Below are positions 14,828-20,707 of a stretch of 54,453 nucleotides of DNA, in pieces (the first letter of the stretch is position 1; every line of letters starts with the position of its first letter). This DNA is from Anabaena sp. UHCC 0204 (GTDB lineage: Bacteria > Cyanobacteriota > Cyanobacteriia > Cyanobacteriales > Nostocaceae): NCBI RefSeq assembly GCF_009711975.1, contig NZ_VIKW01000010.1, positions 109,095-163,547 of the forward strand, written 5' to 3'. The position numbers and the translations under genes were made by a program. Below the pieces are notes generated by a model that saw nothing but the letters and a program-made list of their open reading frames with translations, was not told the DNA's origin and did not search any database.

Positions 14828-14909
14828 GCGGATATGGCGAAATTGGCAGACGCGCTAGATTTAGGTTCTAGTTCCGAAAGGAGTGAAGGTTCAAGTCCTT
14901 TTATCCGCA
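14828..14909 (+). tRNA. tRNA-Leu (anticodon UAG)
   Basis: The acceptor GCGGATA pairs with TATCCGC. There is a D-arm with AAATTGGCAGA, an anticodon stem CTAGA/TCTAG with loop TTTAGGT (anticodon TAG), a long variable arm typical of Leu (TTCCGAAAGGA) and a T-arm with GGTTCAAGTCC. The discriminator is A. CCA is not encoded. The accessory cassette that follows makes this a plausible integration neighbourhood. Confidence 0.95.
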
Positions 14910-14970
14910 CTTTTAATGAATAGTTTAGCTGAAAAAGCACTGAGCAAGATATGTACAGTGACTAATTAGT

Positions 14971-15097
14971 GTCGTTGTTATTTATCTACAACATGAATTG
15001 CGGACAAATAACAACGGCTTGGCTGTCCTGCAAAACGAGGATCAGTTATTAGAGGTTGGCAAAGTTGACTAACAACGGTAGATGGAAATTTGCCAAC
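14971..15097 (+). other. region with two strong consecutive hairpins
   Basis: Hairpin 1: GTCGTTGTTATTT (14971-14983) pairs with AAATAACAACGGC (15006-15018), 13 pairs with one G-U. Hairpin 2: GTTGGCAAA (15055-15063) pairs perfectly with TTTGCCAAC (15089-15097). Between them GGACA (15002-15006) could instead pair with TGTCC (15024-15028), which is incompatible with hairpin 1. The word AACAACGG recurs at 15071. This could be a structured RNA, a leader for the small gene at 15082, or the end of a decayed mobile element. Confidence 0.5.
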
Positions 15098-15258
15098 TGG
15101 CGGAATTTGACCAGCAAGCAGCATTAGAGGCACTTAGTCAGGGACAAAGTGTGATTCCTTTTTGGGGCGATCGCGAAGCGATGCTGCAAGCAGTTCGCGT
15201 GCATCAACAATTGGGAGATAATCTCAAAAGCTTTAGCAATGTTGTAGAAAATTATTAA
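15082..15258 (+). CDS. small hypothetical protein or gene remnant
   Basis: 58 residues, MEICQLAEFDQQAALEALSQ, then GQSVIPFWGDREAMLQAV and a helical end. Its ATG sits in the loop of hairpin 2 at 15055-15097. The composition looks coding, and it contains a HIP1 site (15167-15174) as core genes do. It may be the surviving C-terminus of a longer protein, since upstream in-frame stops occur at once. I do not recognise it. Confidence 0.4.
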   Translation: MEICQLAEFDQQAALEALSQGQSVIPFWGDREAMLQAVRVHQQLGDNLKSFSNVVENY

Positions 15259-15480
15259 TTCATATTTTCCTAACTACATAGTATTCAATACTTAATTTTA
15301 AGAAATAATTGTTACTTAAAATGAGTTGCTTAACCGCTGAAAATTCTCTAATTTGCATACCATAATTTTACGTAACTCTTGTGGGGTAGTCGTCCTGTCC
15401 TTCCTGGATGTGCAAATCAGAAGCGCGACAGCTTGAACCGGCATTAAAGTTAACATTTTTAAACAACTAGTTAAAAAAAT

Positions 15481-15507
15481 CTTGTTTTAGGGTATGTTAA
15501 AAACAAG
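15481..15507. promoter_or_regulatory. inverted repeat upstream of the MerR-like gene
   Basis: CTTGTTTT (15481-15488) and AAAACAAG (15500-15507) form an interrupted palindrome 67 bp before the chosen start. Related AAACAA words flank it on both sides (15461-15466 and 15532-15537). MerR-type regulators bind palindromes with a spacer near 19 bp in their own promoters, so this is a candidate autoregulatory site; the spacing here is 11 bp between arms. Confidence 0.4.
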
Positions 15508-15573
15508 TGTTTAAAATCTAACCTAAAATTTAAACAAAATAGTTCTGTATGTTATATGGAGTACAAGTTTTTT

Positions 15574-16047
15574 ATGGCTAGTGGATTTACTAGACAAGAA
15601 ACCATCGCTTTGACTAGCATAAACTCTGGCAGACTAAGTTACTTAGACCGCACTGGGTTAGTAGTACCAGAGAAGTTTGGTAATCCTCAGCACCCTAAAG
15701 TCGTTTATAAGTGGCAGCAAATTCTAGAAATTAAAACTATTGAAAGATTGAGAGAGAAACTTTCATTACAGGAAATTAGAAAAGTTTTAGATTTTTTAAA
15801 GTCAAGAAATTATGAATACTCATTTTTTCAGCATCGGCTAGTTTTTGTTAATTCCCAACTTTATCTAATTGAAAATATGCAAGATTTCGGGTTGATGATT
15901 TTAGAAACATCTGGAAAAAATCAGGGACAAGTCGTAATTAACGAAATTGGAGAAATTGGAGATGTAATGACAGAATTAGCAATAGAAGCTGAAAAACATC
16001 ATGTTTTAGATTTTGACAAACGCACAGGAATAGTTTTAAAGAGGTAA
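15574..16047 (+). CDS. MerR-like transcriptional regulator of the R-M cassette
   Basis: About 157 residues from ATG 15574 (MASGFTRQETIALT), preceded by GGAG at 15559-15562; ATG 15556 is an alternative. Residues about 4-70 form a winged helix of the MerR type: SGRLSYLDRTGLVVPEKFGN, then VYKWQQILEIKTIERLREKL and SLQEIRKVLDFLKS. The C-terminal part has no metal-binding Cys pattern. It lies 37 bp upstream of the methyltransferase on the same strand and probably controls the cassette, the role C-proteins play in other R-M systems (inferred). Confidence 0.7.
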   Translation: MASGFTRQETIALTSINSGRLSYLDRTGLVVPEKFGNPQHPKVVYKWQQILEIKTIERLREKLSLQEIRKVLDFLKSRNYEYSFFQHRLVFVNSQLYLIENMQDFGLMILETSGKNQGQVVINEIGEIGDVMTELAIEAEKHHVLDFDKRTGIVLKR

Positions 16048-16084
16048 GAGAAACACATACAAGAAGGGTAAGGAGAAACCAGTA

Positions 16085-19000
16085 ATGAATTCTAACATAG
16101 CTGCAAATGAAATATATCAGCGAGTAATGGAGCATACTGGCTTCTATCGTCATGGTTTACCAACTACAGGAGTTATAGAAGCGGAAGATATTCGCAAGAA
16201 TTTAGAAAAACGTATTAAATACAGTGCAGTAATTAATCCTGAGCAAATTAACGCTACAGCAATATATGAATTATCTGGTTCACCTTGTATTTATTTTACT
16301 CAATTAAATGAAGCTAACCCTATAGAGTTAGCTAGATTACATAAACTTTGTTGGAATCATGGTTTAGCCCCAATGTTGTGGGTAATTACTCCTGATGAAG
16401 TTTTACTTTATAACTCTTATTCTCAACCTAAACAACAAGATAAAATTAATCTAAATCGGAATTTAATTGAGAGATTTGCAACAACAGAAAGCGACTTAAA
16501 ACGTATGAATAAATACGCTAGTCGTTTGCAAATTGAATCTGGTGAATTTTGGCAGTGGGAAAAAGCCAAGCAAATTGATCGTCAACAAAGAGTAGATTCA
16601 GTTCTTGTCAAAGATTTAAATGTCGCTGAGAAAGAATTGACCGAAAATCAAAAATTAGATCGTCAATTTGCTCACGCGCTTTTAATACGTTCTGTTTTTG
16701 TTGCTTATTTGCAAGATAGAGGTATTTTAAATCAAGACTTTTTTAGCAATCGCTTTGGAGTAGAATCGTTTAACACATTACTAAATAATAAAATAGCAAC
16801 TTATAATTTGTTTGAGTGGTTGCAAACAATTTTCAATGGAGATTTATTTCCTGTTTCTCCAGAAGAAAAAAATGCTGTAGACAAAAAACATCTTGAAGTT
16901 GCACAAAGTTTAATAGGTGGTGTAGAAGAAATAGCAACAGGACAACAACGTTTATGGCAATTTTATGATTTTAAAGTCATTCCCATAGAGTTGATTAGTT
17001 CAATTTATGAAAGTTTTATTTATGCTACAGATGCTAAATCAGCAAAAGCAAATAGTACCCATTATACACCTCTTAATTTAGTTGATTTGGTGCTGTCTGA
17101 AGTATTTAGAGAACTAGATGGTAATGCTAAAGTTCTAGACTTGTCCTGTGGTTCAGGTGTATTTTTAGTTGAATCTTTGCGGAGATTAGTTGTTAAGCGT
17201 TGCGGTAATGGAGAAATACCGACTCGTCAGCTAATTCGGGAAACTCTCTATAATCAAATTTTTGGTGTAGATATTGAACAAAAAGCGGTTCAAATTGCTG
17301 CTTTTAGTCTATACCTCACTGCTTTAGAATTAGATTATGAATTAGAACAAAATCGTCAATTAACACATGATTTGAAATTTGAAAAGCTGATTGGTAAAAA
17401 TTTATTTACTAGTGACGTATTTAATGAAGAAGCAGAATTTAATAAAGTAGAAGTATTTGCACAAAAACAATTTCATGCAATTGTTGGAAATCCACCTTGG
17501 ACAAAATCAACATTAAACAAATTAGCAGAAAAATATTGTAAGCGTAAACGTCCTGATTCTGGTTATCCAAATGGCTATCCTACGGCTCAACGTACACCTC
17601 CAGATCAAGCATTTTTTTGGCGTATTGGCGACTTTACCAACGATAAAACTTGCATTGGTTTAATTTTGCATGGTAAACCATTTTTTAGTAATGATGAAGC
17701 AGCTAAAAAAGCAAAAGAATCCTTGTTAATGAGGTTTAAGCCAAAAGTGATTGTTAATTTATCTAAGTTGCGTTTAGATAAATTATTTCCAAAATCTAAA
17801 GCTCCAGCAATGATTTTCATAGCAGAAGGGAAGCGTTCAGAACAGAGAGATTATTTTTATTTTGTCTGTCCAGAACGTTCGATAGATTTCCGCCGACATG
17901 GGATTGTAGAAATTGGTGCAGAACATATTAAAAAGCTGCCAGTTTTTAGCACAGCATTGGACTCAGATATGCTGAAACTTGCTACTTGGGGTAATGCTAG
18001 AGATATGTACTTAATTCAAAAATTAAGCTCACTTTCCAAAATTGAAGAAATAGCAGAAAATTATCCTAAGAGTGGATTTTTCCCAGGTAATGAAGAAAGT
18101 GAAACTCCAAAGGAATTACTTGGTAAAAAATGGCTACCTTCTGGTAATATGCCTAGATACGAAATTGATGCGACAGAATTGGATATCTTACCATATAAAA
18201 AAATAGATGCTCCACGTGATCCTAAAATTTACAAAGCACCCTTAATTATTATTTCTGAGAAAGTAAAGTATAATAGTATTTGTGCTGCCTTTAGTGAAGA
18301 AGATATTGTTTATACAAAAAGTTATTCAGGAATACCATTTTCCAAAAATTTAGTACATTTAGCTCATTATTTGAATGGAGTGATTAATTCATCAATTGCC
18401 AGTTACTTTATCTTCATGACTTCTTCATCATGGGGTATAGAACGTGAAACAATTATGACACAGGATTTAGTACAACTTCTTGTTCCTAAACCTAATGAAG
18501 ATAATGAAGGATTGATTACTCAAATTATTAAGATAGAAGGTAGATTGCGCGAATCTCCCAGTAAATCTGTTGAAAAAGATTTTAAAAAACAACTTGATAA
18601 AGCTGTATTTGATCTCTATGATTTAAATGATGATGAACGTATTTTAGTTGAAGATACAACGCAAATCACGATTGATTTATATATGAATCGTGAAAAATCA
18701 GCAGCATTAAAAAAACCTAAAGCTAGTGATTTAGAAGCATACACTTTGAGTTTTATGAGTGTGATTGAACCATTTTTTGACACGCTCAAAGAAAGAAGTA
18801 TAGCTGCGGATATATTTGATATTGCTAATACACCATTACAGGTGGTTAAATTTAGTATAGTACCATATCCAGGTCGTGAACAAATTGTACAAACTATTCA
18901 GGCTGAGGATTTGATAACTGTGCTGCAAAGTATTGCGAAACAACTACCACCAAAATTTGGTGATCGTGTTTTTACACGACGCAATTTAAAAGTTTATGTA

Positions 19001-19108
19001 GGTGAAAATATATATATCATTAAACCTTGTCAACTTCGTTACTGGAGTCGTTCTGCTGGGTTGAATGATGCTGATTCTGTTTTACTTGAAAATTTAAGGA
19101 TGAAATAA
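16085..19108 (+). CDS. large N6-adenine DNA methyltransferase (type IIG/Eco57I-like)
   Basis: 1007 residues. The AdoMet-binding motif I is D352-L-S-C-G-S-G-V-F-L, and catalytic motif IV is N469-P-P-W (VGNPPWTKS), the adenine-N6 class. The first 130 residues resemble the N-domain of Eco57I-like enzymes (ARLHKLCWNHGLAPMLWVIT). I see no convincing PD-(D/E)XK nuclease inside it, and the C-terminal third should recognise the target. The next gene supplies a nuclease candidate 3 bp downstream. GGAG at 16071-16074 supports the start. Base composition is AT-rich, with almost no HIP1 sites. Confidence 0.85.
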   Translation: MNSNIAANEIYQRVMEHTGFYRHGLPTTGVIEAEDIRKNLEKRIKYSAVINPEQINATAIYELSGSPCIYFTQLNEANPIELARLHKLCWNHGLAPMLWVITPDEVLLYNSYSQPKQQDKINLNRNLIERFATTESDLKRMNKYASRLQIESGEFWQWEKAKQIDRQQRVDSVLVKDLNVAEKELTENQKLDRQFAHALLIRSVFVAYLQDRGILNQDFFSNRFGVESFNTLLNNKIATYNLFEWLQTIFNGDLFPVSPEEKNAVDKKHLEVAQSLIGGVEEIATGQQRLWQFYDFKVIPIELISSIYESFIYATDAKSAKANSTHYTPLNLVDLVLSEVFRELDGNAKVLDLSCGSGVFLVESLRRLVVKRCGNGEIPTRQLIRETLYNQIFGVDIEQKAVQIAAFSLYLTALELDYELEQNRQLTHDLKFEKLIGKNLFTSDVFNEEAEFNKVEVFAQKQFHAIVGNPPWTKSTLNKLAEKYCKRKRPDSGYPNGYPTAQRTPPDQAFFWRIGDFTNDKTCIGLILHGKPFFSNDEAAKKAKESLLMRFKPKVIVNLSKLRLDKLFPKSKAPAMIFIAEGKRSEQRDYFYFVCPERSIDFRRHGIVEIGAEHIKKLPVFSTALDSDMLKLATWGNARDMYLIQKLSSLSKIEEIAENYPKSGFFPGNEESETPKELLGKKWLPSGNMPRYEIDATELDILPYKKIDAPRDPKIYKAPLIIISEKVKYNSICAAFSEEDIVYTKSYSGIPFSKNLVHLAHYLNGVINSSIASYFIFMTSSSWGIERETIMTQDLVQLLVPKPNEDNEGLITQIIKIEGRLRESPSKSVEKDFKKQLDKAVFDLYDLNDDERILVEDTTQITIDLYMNREKSAALKKPKASDLEAYTLSFMSVIEPFFDTLKERSIAADIFDIANTPLQVVKFSIVPYPGREQIVQTIQAEDLITVLQSIAKQLPPKFGDRVFTRRNLKVYVGENIYIIKPCQLRYWSRSAGLNDADSVLLENLRMK

Positions 19109-19111
19109 GTT

Positions 19112-19765
19112 ATGTTCCCATTGGATGATTCAGGTACTGTTGGACAACCATCATTTATTAACCGAAGAGACATTATTGCAACAGTATTTGATATTATCCA
19201 AGCAGCTTGGATTCAAGTATGTCAAAAACCAGAGATTAATATTAAAAGTGATGAACCAATCATAGCGGGAGCTTTACATAATCAAATGTGGATAGAAAAG
19301 GAAAATCGTGAGATAAAAGGACCCCCAATAATTGTAAATGAAGCTGCAACAAGACGTTCTCAACGCAGTCTTAAACCTGATGGTTTTATTGATTTTAAAA
19401 TGGTTTATTCCTGGGATATGGAAGATTATTTTGGTATAGAGTGTAAGCGAGTTAGCAGTACAAAACCAAATAGACATTTAGCAAAAGATTATGTTATAGA
19501 AGGTGTAAAAAGATTTGTTGAAGGAACATATAGCATAGGTCATGACTATGCAGCAATGTTAGGTTTTGTGATTGACGGGAAAGTTAATGACTGTATTGAT
19601 TTAATTTGCGATCGCCTGAATAAATATAAAAATGATATATGCTTAAAAGAAGATTGGGTTGATGAGCAAAGTTTTGGAACAACACAAAATATATATCGTA
19701 CTCGTCACCTGCAAAATGGACAAGATATAATGTCTATCCTCCATTTATTTCTTGTCGTTAGTTAA
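19112..19765 (+). CDS. PD-(D/E)XK-like nuclease of the R-M cassette
   Basis: 217 residues. A plausible nuclease core reads P89-D90 (SLKPDGFIDFKMV), about 20 residues, then E110-C-K112 (YFGIECKRVSS), which matches PD-x(n)-(D/E)xK. It starts 3 bp after the methyltransferase stop, so the two are coupled. Together with the MerR-like gene this gives regulator, modification and cleavage in one operon. No named restriction family was recognised. The nuclease call is by motif and context only. Confidence 0.65.
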   Translation: MFPLDDSGTVGQPSFINRRDIIATVFDIIQAAWIQVCQKPEINIKSDEPIIAGALHNQMWIEKENREIKGPPIIVNEAATRRSQRSLKPDGFIDFKMVYSWDMEDYFGIECKRVSSTKPNRHLAKDYVIEGVKRFVEGTYSIGHDYAAMLGFVIDGKVNDCIDLICDRLNKYKNDICLKEDWVDEQSFGTTQNIYRTRHLQNGQDIMSILHLFLVVS

Positions 19766-20707
19766 TTCTGATACTTCCAGCCTGATAGTCACAGATAGTT
19801 GGTAACATTAGAGTGTTCTGGGGCGATCGTATCCCCCCGTTTCCTTAAACTGCCACTCAATCTGGTGACAAGGCGTTTCCGCATAACAAGCTCCAGGTTC
19901 ATGCTGCATACCTTAATGGGTGGTAACATCTCCGCTAACCTCTGAGCATCTACTTCGGGCTTGCTGACTAGGACGAGGATTAAAATGAAACCTTTCCCAC
20001 CGTGTTACTACAGCAGCAATCCCAGCCAAATTACCCAACCCAGCAGCAGATAAATAATTAGCCCTAAATCAACCTAGAAAATGGCTCAGGCTTTCCCCTG
20101 GATAAGGTTGGACGATAAAAACCCAAGGCTATTGGATAAGTAATTGATAATTTGTGATAGGTGATTGGTGATACAATTCCAGTCTTAATCCTGTACATCC
20201 TTAAATCCAGGATATCCTGATTCTGACAATTTCTCTAACTAGCAACTTACGTTAATAAAATTACATACTATGTATAAATTGAACAGTAAAAATGAGTAAA
20301 TAAAGAATTTGTAGCAAATCAAAACCTATGATTTGATAATCTTGAATTAACCTGTTAATCTTGAGTTTTACCTGAAAATAGAAGACAAGGGTATGACTTA
20401 GATCAGGCTATCAAAATAAATTAGATATGGTTTTATACCATACTGAATGGAAGAACGACTATAGACACAAGAGATTTACCTTGATCAATTGTGACATCTG
20501 ATGAATACATTCAGATTCATCAATCAGAAACTCATCTTTTGTACTAATTGTTATCCGTCAATCTATGCTTTATCCTAAAACTTGAGTAATTTAAAATACA
20601 TAAATAATTACTGAGCAGAGTTGGACTAATCAACAGTTGCAATTGATACTCAAAACAGAAAATAAAACTTAGTGATTAATTTATTTTCATAAAAATAACA
20701 TTTAACC
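19766..20707. other. long spacer with decayed DNA
   Basis: No intact gene is seen. On the minus strand, about 19800-20030 has GC content and codon texture like an old coding region: two short open stretches in one frame are separated by a TAA (WERFHFNPRPSQQ to DVTTH, then MQHEPGACYAETPCH to DRPRTL), and another frame is open over the same part. It may be a dead gene or element end. The rest (20100-20700) is AT-rich and probably holds the promoter of the chemosensory operon. Confidence 0.5.
20197..20231. repeat. dispersed repeat, copy 1
   Basis: A near-identical sequence of about 35 bases, from ATCCTTAAATCC to GATTCTGACAATT, recurs at 44060-44095 in the same orientation with one base difference in its core (CCAGGATATCC versus CCTGGATATCC). 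Both copies are intergenic. Confidence 0.8.

Follow-up and report, generated by a model that had tools for sequence, protein, structure and literature searches.

Three adjacent genes beside a tRNA-Leu gene of the cyanobacterium Anabaena sp. UHCC 0204 are best explained, with a probability that we put at about 0.72, as a two-subunit restriction-modification (R-M) system that resembles type IIG enzymes and carries its own MerR-like controller. The genes lie in a 54,453-nucleotide stretch of contig NZ_VIKW01000010.1 (hereafter the window) and encode, in order, a MerR-like winged-helix regulator, an N6-adenine DNA methyltransferase (MT) and a small, putative PD-(D/E)XK nuclease (NUC). An earlier note on this DNA had read them as a split IIG-like system, and this reading is upheld by two observations: the MT and NUC genes are linked in many bacteria, and the N-terminal nuclease domain of the MT has lost its set of active-site residues. 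The MT-NUC module is real and conserved and is probably a functional two-subunit IIG-like R-M system, to which a MerR-like gene belongs in one branch. As the note had also described, the open reading frames (ORFs) run in the same direction (+ strand) with gaps of 37 and 3 bp, and a tRNA scan confirms the adjacent tRNA-Leu. Purifying selection acts on all three genes and is strongest on the regulator, with ratios of nonsynonymous to synonymous substitution (dN/dS; three pairs for each gene) of 0.07-0.10 for MerR, 0.24-0.28 for MT and 0.22-0.31 for NUC.

The linkage of MT and NUC is seen well beyond cyanobacteria. An alignment scan of genome contigs with MT yielded a wider set of 80 loci, kept of 235 relatives among the matches listed. 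A match to the NUC profile lies 3' of the MT gene in 49 of the 51 loci that we call split-type (L046-L096), and in none of the 29 more distant IIG-like loci (L097-L125), 23 of which include at least 800 bp of downstream sequence. The split-type loci span Pseudomonadota, Bacteroidota, Planctomycetota, Chloroflexota, Verrucomicrobiota, Patescibacteria, Spirochaetes and an archaeon, where phylum names come from record titles and some higher names were interpreted from them. In all of the 49 linked loci but one, L072 (583 bp), NUC starts between -20 and +11 bp from the end of MT; these distances are biased towards small values, as NUC was taken to begin at the start codon closest to a 4-bp overlap. 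Three of the 49 have defects: both genes are split in L092, MT is split in L096 and NUC is interrupted in L072. Plasmids show the same arrangement: in each of the five records that match NUC, MT is matched as well, 5' of NUC and on the same strand. No phage record matched MT at 1e-10.

Among 386 cyanobacterial genomes, the NUC query matched 12, at 13 places. An MT homologue lies directly 5' at 12 of these places, one of which (G064) has a broken NUC, and the thirteenth, without MT, is a C-terminal NUC fragment (L026 in G087). The MT query found at least 20 of the 386 genomes at 1e-25 or better, in 26 rows that represent 25 genes; this is a lower bound, as scoring was limited to the top two candidates of each genome. 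When all 25 genes were inspected, an intact NUC-family gene was found directly 3' of 23 (including L024, whose MT is cut by a contig end), and a broken NUC beside the remaining two, L027 (G064) and L044. Within the host family, 24 of 217 genomes have a NUC match, and 24 of the 25 places adjoin an MT, with G087 again the exception. The earlier note would have counted it against its reading if relatives of the MT occurred in most genomes without the two partners. NUC does not show this pattern; the MerR-like gene, which is confined to a single subclade, shows it in part. The intact MT beside a decayed NUC in G064 counts for the two-subunit reading. This locus (L145, G064:C1:3250000-3258000), in which MT and MerR are intact and NUC is in fragments, represents a natural orphan-methyltransferase state. 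As a general line of evidence, however, loss of NUC with retention of MT was given little weight, because frame breaks in metagenome-assembled genomes blur every case other than G064.

The methyltransferase identity of the MT is clear from profile (hidden Markov model) searches, in which it matches the Pfam families Eco57I (2.1e-18) and N6_Mtase (6.8e-17), both above gathering thresholds; the regulator likewise exceeds the MerR_1 threshold, and NUC falls into no family. The PADLOC type IIG models PDLC03603 (7.3e-77, residues 56-996) and PDLC03623 (5.5e-45, residues 30-999) cover nearly the whole MT. We aligned 50 split-type MTs (the window protein and those of 49 of the 51 loci, with L092 and L096 omitted for their split frames) with those single-chain relatives that reach 850 residues (24 of 29). 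The motifs D352-x-x-C-G-S-G and N469-P-P-W, which the earlier note had pointed out in this 1007-residue protein, are present as described, and D352, G356, S357 and G358 of motif I and N469 and P471 of motif IV are invariant across the 50 sequences. The Pfam matches and these invariant residues place the MT among gamma-class N6-adenine methyltransferases.

The same alignment reveals what the MT lacks. At three PD-(D/E)XK columns of the N-terminal domain, the set D, E/D and K is complete in every single-chain row (24 of 24) but in no split row (0 of 50, the window included); three split rows (L055, L070 and L094) have two of the three residues. A loose regular expression for the motif hits all 24 single-chain N-termini and 7 of the 50 split ones, all seven at other positions, which is about the rate for shuffled sequences (12% for the split set, 20% for the single-chain set). 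Nevertheless, the two N-terminal profiles are homologous (hhalign 95.6%, E 1.2e-8; 48 split and 24 single-chain rows), and the domain is retained with more than 90 residues in 48 of the 50 split rows. At the matching position, two single-chain proteins match HSDR_N, L098 above the gathering threshold (1.3e-9) and L097 below it (0.0036). Judged from these alignments, the domain is a cis nuclease domain without an active site that is still recognizable as a homologue of the IIG nuclease domain, and the MT does not carry in its own chain the active nuclease of a type IIG enzyme. This domain would descend from, or share ancestry with, the IIG nuclease domain, and its present role is probably that of a platform for docking or control.

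The residues expected for cleavage are found instead on NUC. We aligned 48 NUC sequences (the window protein and those of 47 of the 49 linked loci, L072 and L092 being omitted as interrupted), and E48, D94, E110, K112 and H211 are invariant in all 48, from many phyla, with Y127 nearly so. In a 24-row cyanobacterial alignment, D94, E110, K112 and Y127 are likewise present in every row. The active-site pattern E...D...E-x-K of PD-(D/E)XK nucleases is therefore found in 48 of 48. In NUC, E, D and E-x-K come in this order ahead of Y127-x-x-x-G and a hydrophobic M149-x-G, as is seen in such nucleases. The earlier note had correctly singled out E110-x-K112, but its proposed catalytic pair P89-D90 is ruled out by poor conservation (P89 in 6 of 48 and D90 in 6 of 48), and the invariant aspartate of motif II is D94. 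Searches of family libraries were less informative. For the window NUC, Pfam gave only an insignificant match (E 0.1), and PADLOC, NCBIfam and a PDB sequence search gave none. PDDEXK_9 does not match the window protein; it matches 5 of the 48 NUCs below its gathering threshold (best 1.3e-4, 22.3 bits against 25.5), each match spanning D...E-x-K. Beyond these and scattered weak single matches, the libraries hold no family common to the 48. A weak hhalign alignment of NUC with the IIG nuclease domain puts both active-site motifs in register, and this result together with the invariant residues indicates that NUC is probably a PD-(D/E)XK nuclease, although nothing clearly marks it as an IIG domain that became detached. 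For a possible relationship to the 8-bp cutters SwaI and PmeI, profile comparisons with solved structures gave no significant match, and such a relationship is not supported.

How the two proteins might work together is suggested by the way in which they vary. MT identity among 15 triplets is lowest in blocks 641-760 and 801-840, and residues 688-781 give a weak match to TaqI_C (21.8 bits, below the gathering threshold of 26.5). Through this C-terminal target region the MT would recognize an asymmetric DNA site and methylate adenine there. In several pairs the target region is only 0.52-0.62 identical yet NUC is 0.82-0.90 identical (for example L126-L129 and L127-L131); the values for L127-L129 are 0.52 and 0.89, and those for L022-L023 are 0.62 and 0.86. 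Over all 105 pairs of the 15 triplets, NUC identity tracks the MT core (r 0.62) over the target region (r 0.23). Change in the target region without change in NUC is the pattern expected if the MT picks the site and NUC is generic. From these pairwise identities we infer that NUC may be guided by the MT: it would supply the PD-(D/E)XK active site in trans, in a complex with the MT, and would probably be brought by the MT to unmethylated sites, where cleavage could serve in defence.

Some observations weigh against this two-subunit reading. NUC is 0.61 identical between L022 and L134 while the MT core is 0.91 and the target region 0.79 identical, and L023 and L134 differ in both target region (0.59) and NUC (0.56). 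E48 is present in only 21 of the 24 rows of the cyanobacterial alignment (L021, L036 and the truncated L044 differ), the hhalign comparison of NUC with the IIG nuclease domain reaches 8.4%, and neither sequence nor profile comparison gave NUC a significant match to any solved structure. Two split-type loci, L091 and L095, have no NUC. Finally, a FastTree phylogeny of 88 MTs over 840 columns puts the 24 single-chain proteins in one clade, to whose base the NUC-bearing L080 and L094 attach by long branches (a 26-member group, support 1.0); the other 62 rows form one group (support 0.88). By this tree, split MTs are not strictly monophyletic, and its topology makes a change from a cis to a trans nuclease likely but does not prove it.

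It is possible, though we consider it unlikely, that the operon is an ordinary type II system in which NUC recognizes and cuts its own site independently, the MT protects the same site and the N-terminal domain of the MT is a relic. The presence of R and M as separate adjacent genes would be unremarkable in such a system, many type II endonucleases are about the size of NUC, and there are pairs in which NUC varies more than the MT core. This arrangement is harder to reconcile with strong change of the target region and little change of NUC (L127-L129 and L022-L023), which is an indirect argument, with NUC identity that follows the MT core rather than the target region, and with the retention of the N-terminal domain in nearly all split rows.

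Two further explanations deny NUC a role as a site-specific restriction enzyme. A BREX-like arrangement, in which self DNA carries the mark of the MT and infection triggers NUC as an effector, seems very improbable to us, even though BREX PglX was formerly listed as type IIG (PMC12707154), inactive restriction endonuclease (REase) domains have been proposed as sensors in BREX-related helicases (PMC12839542) and the MT has weak PglX-like matches. These matches reach at most 39.6 bits against NCBIfam equivalog cut-offs of at least 400 for PglX, and the MAD2 methyltransferase equivalog of MADS is similarly distant (18.3 bits against 720). Neither PglZ nor BrxC was found among the scanned neighbours in the window or 10 hand-picked neighbours elsewhere, which do not amount to a systematic neighbour survey, but L054 is preceded by an AAA_14/DUF4143 gene and L063 by a ClpC-like gene. 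About as improbable is a reading in which the MT acts as an epigenetic regulator and its partner is decaying or does not cut, the conclusion reached for DnmA-YeeB-YeeC of B. subtilis. According to PMC9973331, DnmA is an MmeI-like methyltransferase without an REase motif, and deletions of its cluster in B. subtilis had no effect on three phages; moreover, NUC is broken in G064, L044 and G087. However, the same source describes Vibrio homologues of the DnmA cluster that do affect some phages, and NUC itself is under purifying selection, with active-site residues invariant in 48 sequences and an intact gene in 23 of 25 cyanobacterial loci.

The MerR-like gene appears to be a component of only some of these systems. 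Its product exceeds the MerR_1 gathering threshold (24.2 bits against 21.6), which identifies the DNA-binding domain of the family. It probably starts at ATG 15574 rather than at the ORF opening at 15556, because L023 and L126-L136 give a protein of 157 residues and GGAG precedes this ATG in the alignment. The gene is present in all 14 host-family loci whose upstream DNA is available and whose full-length NUC shares at least 55% identity (the window, L022, L023 and L126-L136; L024 was left out because of a contig end). The more distant L025 also has it, as does L027 with its broken NUC. No MerR match was found at the distant MT-NUC pairs L020, L028, L029, L137-L139 and L141. Two of the three MT-NUC cassettes of the host genome, L020 (G000:C22:276194-279657) and L021 (G000:C6:48827-51922), also have no match to the MerR gene; in the MT tree each of them occupies a separate branch.

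In Pseudomonadota whose MTs belong to the subclade of the window protein (a 12-row group, support 1.0), MerR-like genes overlap the start of MT. Those of L048 (26.7 bits) and L052 (24.1 bits) exceed the MerR_1 threshold, L049 carries a near-identical copy of the L048 gene, and L046 and L050 match weakly; the upstream gene of L053 has no MerR_1 match, and no MerR-like gene was seen at L047 or the archaeal L051. The profile of the cyanobacterial regulators did not find the Pseudomonadota counterparts convincingly (E 0.34 and worse), so their common ancestry is suggested by position and fold family, not by sequence.

Upstream of the regulator gene is the inverted repeat TGTTTAAA-N13-TTTAAACA, which the earlier note had detected. 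When up to two mismatches are allowed, the window has a single copy (0.26 expected), and because 24 of 100 shuffles contain at least one, the repeat is weak evidence when this window is considered alone. However, of the 16 orthologous upstream regions, all but L134 and L135 have a TTTAAAC dyad with a spacing of 11-15 (14 of 16), and positions 15450-15550 are conserved in most of the 16, with divergent DNA distal to them and with L025 departing in the first part. The MerR-like protein would bind the conserved dyad and probably time the expression of the operon. A small DNA-binding gene upstream, a conserved likely operator and a possible timing role give the operon a resemblance to type II R-M systems with C proteins, but C proteins are usually Xre-like, and the window regulator is MerR-like. 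The features of the locus are collected in Table 1.

Table 1. Positions in the window of the operon, its functional regions and the surrounding island.
Feature	Position	Strand	Remarks
tRNA-Leu	14828..14910	+	insertion site directly 3'; same tRNA at empty sites L142 and L143
Variable island, about 5.7 kb, from tRNA-Leu to cheW/methyl-accepting chemotaxis protein (MCP) genes	14950..20705	.	carries the operon
Conserved promoter/operator region upstream of MerR	15450..15550	+	boxes TTTTTAAACAA, GTGTTTAAAA, ATTTAAACAAAA
Inverted repeat TGTTTAAA-N13-TTTAAACA, likely operator of the MerR-like protein	15508..15536	.	dyad conservation
MerR-like winged-helix regulator	15574..16047	+	157 residues from likely start; ORF opens at 15556 (163 residues)
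MT, Eco57I/IIG-like N6-adenine DNA methyltransferase	16085..19108	+	1007 residues
MT N-terminal domain, residues 1-130 (approximate)	16085..16474	+	homologue of IIG nuclease domain without D...E-x-K
MT motif I, D352-L-S-C-G-S-G (S-adenosylmethionine binding)	17138..17158	+	residue invariance
MT motif IV, N469-P-P-W (adenine methylation)	17489..17500	+	residue invariance
MT variable region, probable target-recognition domain, residues 640-840 (approximate)	18002..18604	+	lowest identity along MT
NUC, separate putative PD-(D/E)XK nuclease	19112..19765	+	217 residues; E48, D94, E110, K112

The earlier note had suggested that the operon was acquired near tRNA-Leu, and comparison with two genomes of the same genus bears this out. 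In G103 and G048 (empty sites L142 and L143) the island is absent and alr, tRNA-Leu and cheW lie together, with 179 and 415 bp, respectively, between the tRNA and cheW. The tRNA-Leu site of G072 (L144) carries other cargo, and that of G064 (L145) carries the operon with its decayed NUC and intact MT. The presence of different cargo between the same tRNA-Leu and cheW genes indicates a recurrent insertion site. In L144 (G072:C55:14500-24000, at about 2.2-8.5 kb and in reversed orientation) this cargo amounts to about 6 kb and includes a transposase-like ORF, judged from its first residues, and two short matches to the window island. The island margins (14950-15300 and 19770-20700) hold no ORF of 80 or more residues; the stretches 15089-15237, 15151-15301 and 20258-20363 are common to G072 and G064 and are possibly remnants of earlier insertions. 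The scarcity of HIP1 sites, on which the note had also remarked, is real in that a single site occurs in 4.3 kb, but it is not distinctive, given flanking densities of 0.39-0.40 per kb and about 1.7 sites expected. We therefore judged it too weak as a sign of acquisition and used the empty-site comparison instead. Similarly, GC content drops after about position 15000 and stays low past the island, and because it does so it is no evidence of acquisition by itself.

Known systems offer several partial likenesses. Single-chain Eco57I-like IIG enzymes (R-M-S) share with the MT a length of about 1000 residues, the gamma-class N6-adenine methyltransferase core, a probable C-terminal target region and the homologous N-terminal nuclease region, but in the MT the N-terminal active site is absent and the putative cleavage residues are on the adjacent gene. 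Type I systems (HsdR/M/S) also combine a methylating, site-recognizing component with a separate nuclease subunit; the operon, however, has no HsdS or HsdR gene, and NUC has only 217 residues and no helicase match. The DnmA-YeeB-YeeC clusters of B. subtilis and Vibrio place a IIG/IIL-like methyltransferase without an REase motif beside nuclease genes, but their partners (PMC9973331) are a superfamily 2 helicase and a T5orf172/GIY-YIG protein rather than a small PD-(D/E)XK protein, and a helicase gene is absent from the window operon. HVO_A0006 of Haloferax volcanii is, like the putative nuclease NUC, a free-standing PD-(D/E)XK protein related to R-M, but it is described in PMC4389544 as a fragment of the N-terminus of a single-chain IIG enzyme; NUC, with its hhalign score of 8.4%, is not evidently such a fragment and is itself a conserved partner gene. 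Neither DnmA-YeeB-YeeC nor HVO_A0006 nor the inactive REase domains of BREX-related helicases (PMC12839542) is the MT-NUC pair. We found no earlier description of the pair in the open-access texts that were searched, with subscription papers, REBASE and supplements lying outside the scope of that search.

Among the 10 hand-picked neighbours of split-type loci, those of L054, L062, L064, L088 and L037 are R-M or candidate-defence genes. For example, a type III methyltransferase-like gene (L062:3144-5000) and a candidate-defence AAA_14/DUF4143 gene (L054:1332-2561) each lie directly upstream of an MT-NUC pair, and at L037:3749-10501 the pair is followed, with a 4-bp overlap, by a second IIG-like protein (1005 residues, PDLC03609), which looks like two systems in one operon. 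The L073 neighbour gives weak matches to reverse-transcriptase systems, that of L063 is ClpC-like, and those of L080, L084 and L033 have no PADLOC match. We do not claim enrichment of split-type loci in defence islands.

Existing annotation treats these enzymes differently. PDLC03603 and PDLC03623 match all 47 split-type MTs (the window and 46 of the 51 loci) at 1e-10 or better, so that the MT alone is named as a complete IIG enzyme and NUC is left unnamed. A survey of cyanobacterial R-M systems likewise classed large methyltransferases without endonuclease motifs as IIG, through alignment with solved IIG structures (PMC8262939). In its broadest form, our proposal is that the pair represents a widespread, unnamed two-subunit restriction class between type I and type IIG, in which an MT with a dead nuclease platform recruits a small PD-(D/E)XK subunit, specificity evolves by change in the target region with a generic nuclease, and a branch in cyanobacteria and Pseudomonadota has added a MerR-type timing switch. 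We regard this wider proposal as an even bet. If the two-subunit reading is right, a clade of methyltransferases now called complete IIG enzymes cannot cut alone, and the neighbouring gene that encodes the actual nuclease goes unannotated, which could affect both the counts and the mechanisms of IIG enzymes in cyanobacterial surveys. The system would also be a clear case in which an enzyme domain has lost its catalytic function and a separate gene carries the activity, one that two proteins suffice to test; how restriction specificity evolves, through a changing target region and a generic cutter, would become directly testable.

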